Shown here: positions 12,770 to 16,703 of the stretch, piece after piece
Layout: every line of letters begins with the position of its first letter
Position numbering within the stretch: position 1 is the first letter of the stretch
DNA from: an uncultured Gammaproteobacteria bacterium
Lineage (GTDB): Bacteria > Pseudomonadota > Gammaproteobacteria > Enterobacterales > Psychrobiaceae
Reading direction: 5' to 3'
Length of the DNA: 41,277 nt
Assembly (NCBI GenBank): GCA_913060565.1
Contig: CAJXRU010000021.1
Span: 1-41,277, forward strand
Notes under the pieces: generated by a model
Told to the model about the DNA's origin: nothing
Seen by the model: the letters and a program-made list of their open reading frames with translations, nothing else
Databases searched by the model: none
Position numbers and translations under genes: made by a program

Positions 12770-13816
12770 CTAAAAATGGTCTTTTTTATTACGGCGAGAT
12801 TGTGTTTGAACGGTTTTATACATCTTGCTAAGCGACTTACCCTGAGCACGTTTTTCAGCAATACTGGCACCATTGATAGCTTGCTCACGTAGCAATTTTT
12901 TAAAATTTACCAAACGGCGCTCATCTATTTCGCCTTGCTCCACAGCTAAACGAACAGCACAACCGGGTTCTTGTTCATGTGAGCAATCGCTATATCGACA
13001 TTGCTTTGAGTATTCGCCAATATCGTTAAAAGTTGCGCTCACACCCTCTTCACAGGCCACTAGTTGCAGCTCGCGCATTCCAGGAGTATCTATTAATACC
13101 GCTCCACTACACATAAAGTGCATTGAACGAGCCGTTGTCGTGTGTCGTCCTTTAGAGTCATCGTCACGGATCCTACCCGTTTCCAATGCCTGCTCATCAA
13201 GCAACGAATTCACTAATGTCGACTTGCCCACACCGGAAGAGCCAAGAACAGCAACCGTTTTTCCAGTGCGACACCAAGATAATAAGCATTCAACACTACT
13301 GTGATCGAGCGCATTCACCGTTTCAATCATTAGTAAGGGATCTAACGCTTGAACCTGCTGCACATAATGCGCAGTATTGTCGCATAAATCAGCTTTTGTC
13401 AGTACGATGACAGCCTCGGCGCCAGCTTCATTTACAAGTGCAAGATAACGTTCTATTCGACTCAAACTAAAGTCATCATTGAGTGAACTTACAATAAATA
13501 CTGTATCAATATTCGCAGCAATTAACTGCGCTCTAATTTTGCTACCAGCAGCTTTGCGACTAAATTCAGACCGCCTGTCGAGCAATCTAATAAAAACATT
13601 GTCGCGATCGAGTAACAACCAATCACCGACCGTAATAGCTGGCATCTTATTGGTGTAATGCAATTGAATTTTACCGTGCTCAGAAAGAAGCTCTACGTAA
13701 GAGCGGTGTTGTGCAACAACACGAGCAGTGACAGTGGTTTCCCACTCGTTTAATGAAATTTGTTGTTGAAAAGTAGGTGACCATCCCATACGAGATAGTG
13801 AATAAGGTGTAGTCAT
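12770..13816 (-). CDS. rsgA: RsgA/YjeQ-type circularly permuted GTPase (probable second paralogue)
   Basis: This GTPase family assists late maturation of the 30S ribosomal subunit. The 348-residue protein has an N-terminal OB fold and a GTPase domain in permuted order: G4 (LTKADLC) precedes G1 (GSSGVGKST) and G3 (DTPGMRE). A zinc site CRYSDCSHEQEPGC (Cys-x4-Cys-x-His-x5-Cys) follows, then a Lys-rich tail ending in SRRNKKDHF. It differs from classical E. coli RsgA in the N-terminus, the G3 variant and the tail. It is also not next to orn or psd, so it is probably the second paralogue many marine gammaproteobacteria carry. The start at 13816 is set by AGGGG 5 nt upstream. A leader peptide and competing hairpins lie upstream. 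Confidence 0.88.
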   Translation of the reverse strand: MTTPYSLSRMGWSPTFQQQISLNEWETTVTARVVAQHRSYVELLSEHGKIQLHYTNKMPAITVGDWLLLDRDNVFIRLLDRRSEFSRKAAGSKIRAQLIAANIDTVFIVSSLNDDFSLSRIERYLALVNEAGAEAVIVLTKADLCDNTAHYVQQVQALDPLLMIETVNALDHSSVECLLSWCRTGKTVAVLGSSGVGKSTLVNSLLDEQALETGRIRDDDSKGRHTTTARSMHFMCSGAVLIDTPGMRELQLVACEEGVSATFNDIGEYSKQCRYSDCSHEQEPGCAVRLAVEQGEIDERRLVNFKKLLREQAINGASIAEKRAQGKSLSKMYKTVQTQSRRNKKDHF

Positions 13817-13855
13817 AATAACCCCTGACGTTTTCACGCCATCAATAAAATAGGT

Positions 13856-13919
13856 GGGGCTTAAATGCCCCGGTTAAAGCAACCGGGAGCTAGCGTTATA
13901 CGCTTAGCTAATTTCCCGG
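13856..13919 (-). promoter_or_regulatory. Leader with competing stem-loops upstream of rsgA paralogue
   Basis: In the minus-strand transcript three stems can be drawn. Stem 1 (13919-13883) pairs CCGGG and AGCT-A-AGCGT with ACGCT, AGCT and CCCGG, and includes the last codons of a leader ORF. Stem 2 (13886-13870) is CCGGTT/AACCGG. Stem 3 (13871-13856) is GGGGC/GCCCC. Stem 2 shares CCGG with stem 1 and two G residues with stem 3, so 1+3 and 2 are alternatives. The free GCCCC arm could pair with the rsgA Shine-Dalgarno AGGGGT (13821-13826). This is the architecture of translation attenuation; the direction of control is not determined. Confidence 0.6.
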
Positions 13920-13939
13920 AAGGTGTTGACTACAATCAT
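13904..13939 (-). CDS. Putative 11-residue leader peptide for rsgA paralogue
   Basis: The minus-strand ORF ATG...TAA encodes MIVVNTFREIS. A near-perfect Shine-Dalgarno GGAGGG (13945-13950) lies 5 nt before the ATG, better than that of rsgA itself. Its last five codons form the 5' arm of stem-loop 1, so a ribosome at its end would block that stem and favour stem 2. It lies about 90 nt upstream of the rsgA start and within the predicted transcript. Translation is inferred from the ribosome-binding site and the placement; conservation across species is untested. Confidence 0.6.
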   Translation of the reverse strand: MIVVNTFREIS

Positions 13940-13980
13940 GAATACCCTCCATTTTTAAATTTATTTCTTTATGCATCGCC

Positions 13981-14008
13981 AATGTATCAAATGCTAAATT
14001 GATGTCAA
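13981..14008 (-). promoter_or_regulatory. Putative promoter of the rsgA leader transcript
   Basis: On the minus strand, TTGACA (14003-14008, perfect) is followed after 16 bp by TACATT (13981-13986). The predicted start near 13974 gives a leader of about 157 nt before the rsgA ATG, including the leader peptide. Confidence 0.5.
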
Positions 14009-14038
14009 CGACACGCTTGTGTTTATCTGAAAAAGCGC

Positions 14039-14074
14039 AAAAAAAACCGCTTCATATAATGAAACGGTTTTTAA
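14039..14074 (-). terminator. Rho-independent terminator of malic enzyme gene
   Basis: On the minus strand AAAACCG-T-TTCAT, loop TAT and ATGAA-G-CGGTTTT form a long stem followed by a run of eight T. It lies 24 bp after the maeB stop and just upstream of the rsgA promoter. Confidence 0.85.
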
Positions 14075-14097
14075 TCACATAATTGACCAATGGAGAA

Positions 14098-15339
14098 TTA
14101 CTCCATATAACCTTTTGGCATTTCAATGGCAGCCACTTCAGAATCAATCGCTGCTTGCGCAACAGCCTTTGAAACGCGGGTTAATAAACGTGGATCCATT
14201 GGCTTAGGAATAATATATTCTTTGCCGAAAGTTAATGACTTATACCCACTGGCTTTTAATACTTCGGCAGGCACTTCTTCTTTCGCAATTTGACGAATTG
14301 CGTGTACAGCAGCCACTTTCATTTCCTCATTAATCGTCGAAGCACGCACATCTAACGCACCGCGGAAAATGAATGGGAAACACAGCACATTGTTTACTTG
14401 ATTTGGGTAATCACTACGACCAGTCGCCATAATTAAATCTTTACGGGCAGCGTGTGCCAGCTCTGGTTTAATTTCAGGATCAGGATTCGAACAAGCGAAG
14501 ATTACTGGCTTATCCGCCATCAATTTAACATGTTCAGCGCCAATAACATCAGGGCCAGATACACCAACAAAAATGTCAGCGCCACTAATAACTTCTTCAA
14601 GGGTACGCATATCAGTATTGTTAGCAAAACGGCGCTTATATTCATTTAAATCATCACGATTCGTGTGAATAACGCCTTTGCGATCTAACATGTATATTTT
14701 TTCACGCATCGCGCCACATGAAATTAATAGCTCCATACAAGAGATTGCTGCGGCACCCGCACCCATACAGACAATACGAGACTCTTCAATCTTCTTACCT
14801 TGAATATCAAGCGCATTAAGCATGCCGGCTGCCGTCACAATAGCAGTACCGTGTTGATCATCATGAAAAACAGGAATTGAACAACGCTCTTTTAGCGCCT
14901 TTTCAATCATAAAACATTCAGGTGCTTTAATGTCTTCAAGGTTAATGCCACCAAAGGTATCGGCGATGTTTGCTACCGTATCAACAAACTCATCAACGGT
15001 ACGATGCTTTACTTCAATATCAATAGAATCAATGTTTGCGAATCGTTTAAACAACAACGATTTACCTTCCATGACAGGTTTAGAAGCGAGCGGCCCCAGG
15101 TTACCTAATCCTAAAATCGCTGTACCATTAGTAATAACAGCAACTAAGTTACCTTTACCTGTGTACTTATAAGCATTTTCCGGATCTTGAGCAATCTCAC
15201 GAACTGGTTCAGCAACACCTGGGCTATATGCCAATGCTAAATCTTTTGCTGTTTCAGCTGGAGTTGAAAGCTCTACACTAATTTTGCCGGGTGTTGGCAA
15301 CGCATGGTAGTCAAGCGCCTGTTGACGAAAGTCAGTCAT
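14098..15339 (-). CDS. maeB: Malic enzyme (oxaloacetate-decarboxylating malate dehydrogenase)
   Basis: A 413-residue cytosolic enzyme converting malate to pyruvate and CO2 with reduction of NAD(P). Conserved parts are LAYSPGVAEPVREI, the catalytic Lys in MEGKSLLFKRFANID, the metal-binding NLEDIKAPECF and FHDDQHGTAIV, the nucleotide loop VCMGAGAAAIS, and FACSNPDPEI. It is the short form, without the phosphotransacetylase-like domain that extends E. coli MaeB to 759 residues. Cofactor preference cannot be read from sequence with certainty. The start at 15339 (MTDFRQQALDYHALP) follows AGGAAA by about 10 nt. An upstream TTG frame runs through the palindromic operator region and is rejected. Confidence 0.92.
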   Translation of the reverse strand: MTDFRQQALDYHALPTPGKISVELSTPAETAKDLALAYSPGVAEPVREIAQDPENAYKYTGKGNLVAVITNGTAILGLGNLGPLASKPVMEGKSLLFKRFANIDSIDIEVKHRTVDEFVDTVANIADTFGGINLEDIKAPECFMIEKALKERCSIPVFHDDQHGTAIVTAAGMLNALDIQGKKIEESRIVCMGAGAAAISCMELLISCGAMREKIYMLDRKGVIHTNRDDLNEYKRRFANNTDMRTLEEVISGADIFVGVSGPDVIGAEHVKLMADKPVIFACSNPDPEIKPELAHAARKDLIMATGRSDYPNQVNNVLCFPFIFRGALDVRASTINEEMKVAAVHAIRQIAKEEVPAEVLKASGYKSLTFGKEYIIPKPMDPRLLTRVSKAVAQAAIDSEVAAIEMPKGYME

Positions 15340-16618: not shown

Positions 16619-16703
16619 TAGAAAAACCTCTAAATAGTTCGCATCGCTAACAAACCCGAAGTCTGACACCATACGAAGATTATAAATAAATATTAGGGCG
16701 CGG

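Follow-up and report, generated by a model that had tools for sequence, protein, structure and literature searches.

Does the RNA upstream of a second rsgA-type gene in an uncultured gammaproteobacterium act as a switch that responds to ribosomes, and in which direction would such a switch work? The window, i.e., the whole stretch of DNA analysed here, comprises 41,277 nucleotides of contig CAJXRU010000021.1 (NCBI assembly GCA_913060565.1; Psychrobiaceae). A preliminary description of its sequence had proposed a translation attenuator in front of this gene.

The rsgA2 gene and its leader

The gene, labelled rsgA2 in this report, is located at 12770..13816 on the minus strand and encodes an RsgA-family circularly permuted GTPase, the second copy in the source genome. 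RsgA2 matches TIGR00157 with 150.4 bits (curated cut-off 100) and the Pfam RsgA_GTPase family PF03193 with 166.9 bits (cut-off 30), misses the cut-off of PRK12288 (173.5 vs. 360), and has RsgA/EngC proteins as its top-scoring solved chains. An action on ribosomes in 30S maturation would be expected from its family. The other rsgA, found elsewhere in the source genome, shares 34% identity with rsgA2. No close relative of rsgA2 was seen in eight genomes of the same genus (G001-G008, three of which are 80-88% complete), where the best matches (E 1.1e-34 to 1.7e-32) were of the strength expected for the other copy. That rsgA2 and its leader are apparently missing from these partly incomplete genomes suggests either gain by transfer or repeated loss. 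The rsgA2 copy of genome G055 (L016) has an internal stop, is continued by a second match, and is apparently a decaying gene; no leader was found there by the search rule given below.

An 11-codon leader ORF followed by a stop codon (MIVVNTFREIS; 13904..13939, minus strand) precedes rsgA2, and its Shine-Dalgarno (SD) sequence, GGAGGG, is found at 13945..13950. Both had been reported in the preliminary description and are present. A candidate sigma-70-like promoter (TTGACA-16 nt-TACATT; 13981..14008, minus strand), with a TG before its second hexamer and 10 of 12 matches, would give the leader its own short transcript. Promoter-like sites in the scanned stretch numbered four, against 3.7 expected by chance, which makes this site weak evidence.

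Five segments, a to e, form a chain of alternative pairings on the minus strand (a:b, b:c, c:d, and d:e), in which a is inside the leader ORF and e is the SD of rsgA2. Segment a (13900..13919) comprises the last codons of the ORF and the bases just past its stop, and its first paired base is at +21 from the AUG. Segment b (13880..13896) pairs either with a, through 13896-13883, or with c, through 13888-13880. Segment c (13867..13876) pairs with b through 13876-13868 or with d through 13871-13867, and segment d (13856..13861), an anti-SD, pairs with c or with e. The last segment, AGGGGUU (13820..13826), pairs with d through 13825-13820. The three overlapping stems of the preliminary description were all recovered: stem 1 is CCGGGA/UCCCGG with an inner extension (13919-13900 and 13896-13883), stem 2 is UCCCGGUUG/UAACCGGGG (13888-13880 and 13876-13868), and stem 3 is GGGGC/GCCCC (13871-13867 and 13860-13856). 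Its further statement that the GCCCC arm of stem 3 can pair with the rsgA SD also holds, AGCCCC (13861-13856) being complementary to GGGGUU (13825-13820). Directly upstream of the rsgA2 SD, hairpin f (UGGCGU-GAAA-ACGUCA; 13826..13841, minus strand), which the preliminary description lacks, is compatible with both states of the chain, and comparable hairpins were recognised by eye in several relatives.

The 130-nt leader folds with a z-score of -2.88 (1 of 200 shuffles as good), and the wider 201-nt stretch with one of only -1.75 (7 of 200). When only the stretch between the ORF and the SD was shuffled, none of 50 shuffles equalled the four-stem chain of the window (-57.6); their mean was -33.0 and their best value -45.8. 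The pattern GGAG-N4-9-ATGATTGT has one match in the 4.35-Mb genome and its backward control has four, so that the pattern is not rare in itself. Judged from sequence, the strongest evidence that the element is real is its conservation in relatives.

At the gathering score, Rfam 15 has nothing over the leader. With a relaxed threshold, seven matches were obtained across 13700-14120 (E-values of 0.73 to 3.6 or 6.7), all below the gathering score. An L31-Gammaproteobacteria ribosomal protein leader (RF03157; 39.9 bits) is located at 16626-16675 on the minus strand, a second cis-regulator of a ribosome component within 3 kb. No description of an rsgA leader was found in a literature in which subscription journals are thinly covered, including the accessible parts of PMC9966474, PMC12121999, and PMC6310831, while in the accessible parts of PMC6912228 and PMC10502375 the term "leader peptide" occurs only within the reference lists.

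Conservation and distribution in relatives

Upstream regions (n = 203) were collected from GTDB relatives of RsgA2. This set is redundant and includes close strains, duplicate entries of some genomes, and distant relatives with as little as about 41% identity; one relative search contributed the best 80 of 456, and 11 matches of another were left out. Leaders were identified by a rule that combines an ATG, an SD, a length of 7-26 codons, and a start of the form M-[IRN]-[VA], and four candidates (L047, L052, L105, and L185) were removed by hand. A leader ORF beginning with M-I-V, or nearly so, is present in 109 of the 203 regions of the redundant set, under a rule that itself favours M-I-V and that places an SD-like motif before all 109 by construction.

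These 109 leaders represent 84 distinct ORF starts. Codon 2 is Ile (ATT) in 81 of them, codon 3 is Val (GTN, with all four third bases occurring) in 81, and codon 4 encodes L, I, F, M, or V in 72. Thinning of the 98 non-identical leaders by shared 8-mers gave a diverse set of 68, in which the first two positions of codon 3 are nearly invariant, with variation mainly at its third base, and the second base of codon 4 is U in 57. The pattern at codons 3 and 4 suggests coding selection on the leader ORF. At codon 2, the third base is U in all 68 diverse leaders, and Ile is always encoded there by AUU, never by AUC or AUA, which is, on codon usage, a constraint beyond the amino acid. Since codon 3 likewise favours AT-ending codons, part of the preference for AUU may stem from weak structure around the start.

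The pairings were examined by partner swapping, because a MAFFT alignment of 22 leaders (A1) misplaced segment d in some rows. In this test, the segment pairs of each leader are compared with pairs swapped between species. Of the diverse leaders, 56 of 68 were included, and 12 that could not be parsed were left out (L013, L048, L055, L066, L067, L084, L087, L141, L146, L152, L181, and L189). Across the 56 leaders, own pairs are more stable than swapped pairs for a:b (-17.96 vs. -14.15 kcal/mol; z -11.7), c:d (-10.95 vs. -9.32 kcal/mol; z -7.0), and d:e (-10.35 vs. -8.53 kcal/mol; z -6.8), and three of the four pairings thus covary. The fourth, b:c, is nearly invariant, and its covariation was not confirmed in this test (z -1.5; 374/5000). 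Pairings between non-neighbours are flat (z 1.1 for a:e, 0.3 for b:e, and -0.5 for c:e), and a:c is disfavoured (z +3.9). As a:e, b:e, and c:e share the same relatedness and yet are flat, they argue that relatedness is not the cause of the swap signal; the chain, swap, openness, and set-point statistics all ignore kinship among leaders. Where the rsgA2 SD changes from AGGGGU to UAGGGU, UAGGUACU, GUAGGG, or UGGGAU in relatives, its partner d follows, as in the pairs UCAGGGGU/GCCCCUGA, AUGGGGU/GCCCCAU, UAGGGU/ACCCUA, GUAGGG/CCCUAC, UUAGGUACU/AGUACCUGA, and UUGGGAU/AUCCCAA. The conservation for which the preliminary description had looked to relatives is thus found in the ORF and in three covarying pairings, though the eight same-genus genomes lack a close relative of the gene.

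In a four-stem search with shuffling again confined to the stretch between the ORF and the SD, 38 of the 98 non-identical leaders were better than all 50 of their shuffles. The remaining 60, among them the long Vibrio splendidus-type leaders, were equalled or surpassed by at least one shuffle in this search, which allows no mismatches within a stem. Two divergent leaders, L084 and L087, read by eye and from duplex energies, would have a shorter relay of a:b against b:e with the predicted sign unchanged; the four-stem score of L087 was matched by 26 of 50 shuffles. Other candidate pairings were rejected. The leader SD with a pyrimidine-rich tract before b gave a z of 0.1 and was better than shuffles in 28 of 56 leaders, AUGAUUGU paired elsewhere in the leader with -3.97 against -4.06 for shuffles, and leader codons 2-7 with the rsgA2 SD were rejected as a general feature, being not conserved.

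Every verified leader is in front of rsgA2 or a relative of rsgA2, and the element recurs at this position in Vibrionaceae and other Gammaproteobacteria. The b:c motif is present at 55 non-identical loci, and at 52 of these an M-I-V-type ORF with an SD is found at most 230 nt upstream; the ORF is further out in L168 and L178, and none was found at L102. In 150 Vibrionaceae genomes, the b:c pattern occurs at 33 places in 30 genomes, and 28 of these places adjoin rsgA2 (27 by coordinates and L235 by reading). The five places away from rsgA2 are L225, L233, and L239, which have no M-I-V leader and look like chance matches, and second places in genomes G178 and G231. A leader-start pattern was found at 25 places in 23 of 369 class-level genomes. 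One of these (L270 in G347) is a known rsgA2 leader, and the other 24 resemble ordinary gene starts, judging from the matched letters. This pattern required A or G before GGAG and misses true leaders, including that of the window, so that absence elsewhere is weak evidence.

By the search rule, 94 of the 203 upstream regions have no leader. In several of them the rsgA gene was seen by eye to follow close behind another reading frame, and eight leaderless loci (L069, L070, L083, L085, L086, L093, L095, and L106) have a common upstream reading-frame family that looks GNAT-like. Records of Vibrio campbellii, V. alginolyticus, and Shewanella aestuarii have no leader. Seven records came from a plasmid collection, with a leader in L277, L278, L281, and L282 and none in L276, L279, and L280. 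The leaderless rsgA genes of L279 (a V. alginolyticus plasmid) and L280 (an S. aestuarii plasmid) are located behind annotated GNAT acetyltransferase and helix-turn-helix genes. Gene neighbours differ between groups and give no functional clue. In L007, the leader is about 480 nt upstream of rsgA2, and the extra stretch between them, with inverted repeats at its flanks as seen by eye, resembles a short mobile element inserted immediately behind an SD-like AGGGGUU.

Predicted polarity, set point, and alternative readings

Because a:b together with c:d frees the rsgA2 SD, and b:c together with d:e hides it, covering of segment a by a ribosome should hide the SD. In the window, the SD-open state is predicted to be favoured when no ribosome is present, since its energy is -35.9 kcal/mol (a:b and c:d) against -26.5 kcal/mol for the closed state (b:c and d:e). 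In folding calculations, moving the ribosome from codon 3 to the stop codon lowers SD openness in 86 of 98 leaders. This drop in openness exceeds that of the leader's own shuffles in 51 of the 68 diverse leaders (p = 3.7e-6), and in the other 17 no drop beyond shuffles is predicted.

A sliding-footprint profile (33-nt footprint, 68 diverse leaders, no shuffled control) gave a mean SD openness of 0.277 with no ribosome, 0.293 with the footprint edge at +18, 0.210 at +24, and 0.162 at +42. Mean openness is greatest on an empty leader or with the edge at +18, and declines from +21. The corresponding values for the window are 0.206 with no ribosome, 0.216 at +18, 0.129 at +21, 0.041 at +24, and 0.022 at +42. 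The SD is more open with the edge at +18 than at +30 in 50 of the 68 leaders and not in the other 18. These openness values are modest, and the calculation ignores co-transcriptional folding and pseudoknots.

Counted from the leader AUG, the first base to pair in a:b falls between +19 and +28 in 55 of the 56 leaders, and exactly at +19 in 23 of them. Its position varies less relative to the AUG (sd 2.2) than relative to the stop codon (sd 7.5; 56 leaders), and it is within 18-24 in 93% of leaders compared to 18% of codon-shuffled ORFs, a regularity to which shared descent of the Vibrio leaders contributes. The one outlier, L154, has a:b at +14 with a poor duplex (-9.3 kcal/mol). In E. coli under tetracycline, the leading edge of a ribosome stalled at a start codon is found at +16 to +18 (PMC12121999, accessible part). 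This edge precedes the start of a:b by so little that a ribosome at the start codon would just spare the helix, and an advance of one or two codons would start to unwind it. It is in this interval that the conserved codons 2-4 are decoded. That these codons are conserved, and that a keeps a nearly constant distance from the AUG, suggests an event at the leader AUG, or immediately beyond it, and not an arrest within stem 1; we therefore favour a sensor of ribosomes that fail to load or to leave the start codon.

The element is probably a ribosome-mediated translation attenuator of inverted polarity, in which rsgA2 would be expressed whenever ribosomes cannot begin translating the leader or cannot move off its start codon; its sign is predicted from the segment count and from folding. 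With no ribosome on a, or with a ribosome held at the start or the first codons of the leader, a:b and c:d would form, e would be free, and RsgA2 would be made. Ribosomes that are past the first codons and travelling along the ORF would open a:b, whereupon b would take c, and the released d would cover the rsgA2 SD and turn the gene off. As triggering conditions for the on state we infer a shortage of competent 30S subunits, inhibitors of initiation or early elongation, or slow decoding of codons 2-4 (Ile-Val-hydrophobic). More tentatively, the leader could be a dedicated gauge of the initiation-to-elongation step, with rsgA2 off once ribosomes have moved one or two codons; such an attenuator would work by negative logic, reading out the competence of ribosomes and responding with a GTPase of ribosome maturation. 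Of the attenuator first proposed for this locus, the conserved leader peptide and the exclusive pairings ending at the rsgA SD are retained, and the ermC- or cat-type layout is not, since the fifth segment means that a ribosome on a is predicted to hide the SD; the antibiotics, cold, or immature subunits named there are candidate triggers.

Classic polarity, with the rsgA2 SD exposed by ribosome arrest within the leader, is unlikely. The arrangement of leader and alternative stems does resemble ermC, and the leader toiL switches its gene on upon stalling (PMC12121999, accessible part), but a chain of five segments gives the reverse outcome, the SD is predicted to become less open once a is covered, and the versions in L084 and L087 also have the opposite sign as judged by eye. 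In the minimum-free-energy fold of the leader in the window (-40.9), codons 3-7 additionally pair with the rsgA2 SD, which could make a ribosome at the start codon necessary for the on state in the window: codons 3-7 of an empty leader would mask the SD, and a parked ribosome would cover them and keep a:b. Such a requirement is improbable given that this pairing is not conserved (swap z -0.9) and is no better than shuffles in 30 of 56 leaders. The same switch could also be operated by starvation for Ile or Val, with uncharged tRNA stalling ribosomes at codons 2-4, a kept free, and rsgA2 on. The residues at codon 2 (Ile, 81 of 84), codon 3 (Val, 81 of 84), and codon 4 (L, I, F, M, or V, 72 of 84) would fit, under a search rule that favours I and V, but there is only one codon for each, unlike in ilv or leu leaders, and we know of no link between RsgA and branched-chain amino acids; we consider starvation sensing a doubtful reading.

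The near invariance of the b and c sequences could instead reflect the binding of RsgA2 (autoregulation) or another protein to the b:c hairpin, or a metabolite aptamer, with the ORF incidental. CpgA is a relative of RsgA. In B. subtilis, CpgA also acts in metabolite proofreading (PMC12445079, accessible part). However, invariance is also expected when each base serves two SD-anchored pairings, the coding-type codon conservation and the AUG-fixed position imply a translated ORF, and no Rfam match was obtained at the gathering score, all of which makes a binding site or aptamer very unlikely. In the window, c:d is followed by ACCTATTTTA and was scored as terminator-like (4 such sites found against 1.6 expected), as would suit transcription attenuation with c:d as an intrinsic terminator and leader translation controlling read-through. 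A conserved terminator was rejected, though the c:d of the window is terminator-like, as only 15 of 51 leaders have a U-run (at least 5 in 8) behind d. The covarying pairing of d with the SD would moreover have no role in transcription attenuation, which is thus highly improbable.

Comparison with known attenuators

The inverted-polarity attenuator proposed here adds a regulatory RNA that no Rfam model matches at its gathering score, that recurs before rsgA2, and that would link a ribosome-assembly factor to what ribosomes do on a leader ORF. To our knowledge, the way in which bacteria might sense that competent ribosomes are scarce is largely an open question, and the rsgA2 element makes one answer to it testable. 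The inverted five-segment logic would also widen the range of attenuator designs.

The nearest known ideas are toiL, hflXr, and ermC. The leaders of L31 and other ribosomal proteins in Rfam are likewise cis-regulatory RNAs for ribosome components, but they bind proteins and are not known to have a leader ORF. Attenuators of the ermC and cat type share with the rsgA2 leader a leader peptide with a strong SD, alternative stems, and a target SD that is sequestered in one state. They have four segments with the target SD in the last, and a ribosome on the leader frees this SD. Stalling there turns the gene on, whereas in the rsgA2 leader, with five segments and the SD as the fifth, movement through the leader is predicted to turn the gene off. 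The arrest motifs of ermC-type leaders, such as IFVI, IAVV, or RLR, are near segment 1. The conserved part of the rsgA2 leader (M-I-V-hydrophobic at codons 1-4) is hydrophobic like IAVV, but N-terminal; its conserved codons at the very start, and an RsgA-family GTPase as the target, further distinguish it from ermC and cat. The regulation of ermC is described as translation attenuation of a ribosome-binding site (PMC6310831, accessible part).

The uORF toiL of E. coli topAI also controls exposure of a downstream SD; its first seven residues are conserved, and drugs that stall ribosomes at the start codon induce the gene (PMC12121999, accessible part). In the rsgA2 leader, by contrast, the segment relay is predicted to hide the SD when a ribosome elongates along the ORF. 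The hflXr attenuator of Listeria similarly has a small ORF that controls a second copy of a ribosome-associated GTPase, in this case by transcription attenuation, with RLR in a 14-residue peptide and stalling that turns the gene on (PMC6310831, accessible part). The rsgA2 leader differs from it in being translational, in its M-I-V start, in the lack of RLR from all 109 leaders, and in its reversed predicted sign. The leaders of vga(A) and, by presumed identity, vmlR have antibiotic-resistance targets and are set apart by the target gene (PMC12121999, accessible part); vmlR is the subject of PMC9226507 (accessible part). Against this background, we rate the rsgA2 leader as a ribosome-mediated attenuation device whose predicted logic is reversed and whose set point and target differ from those of the known systems.
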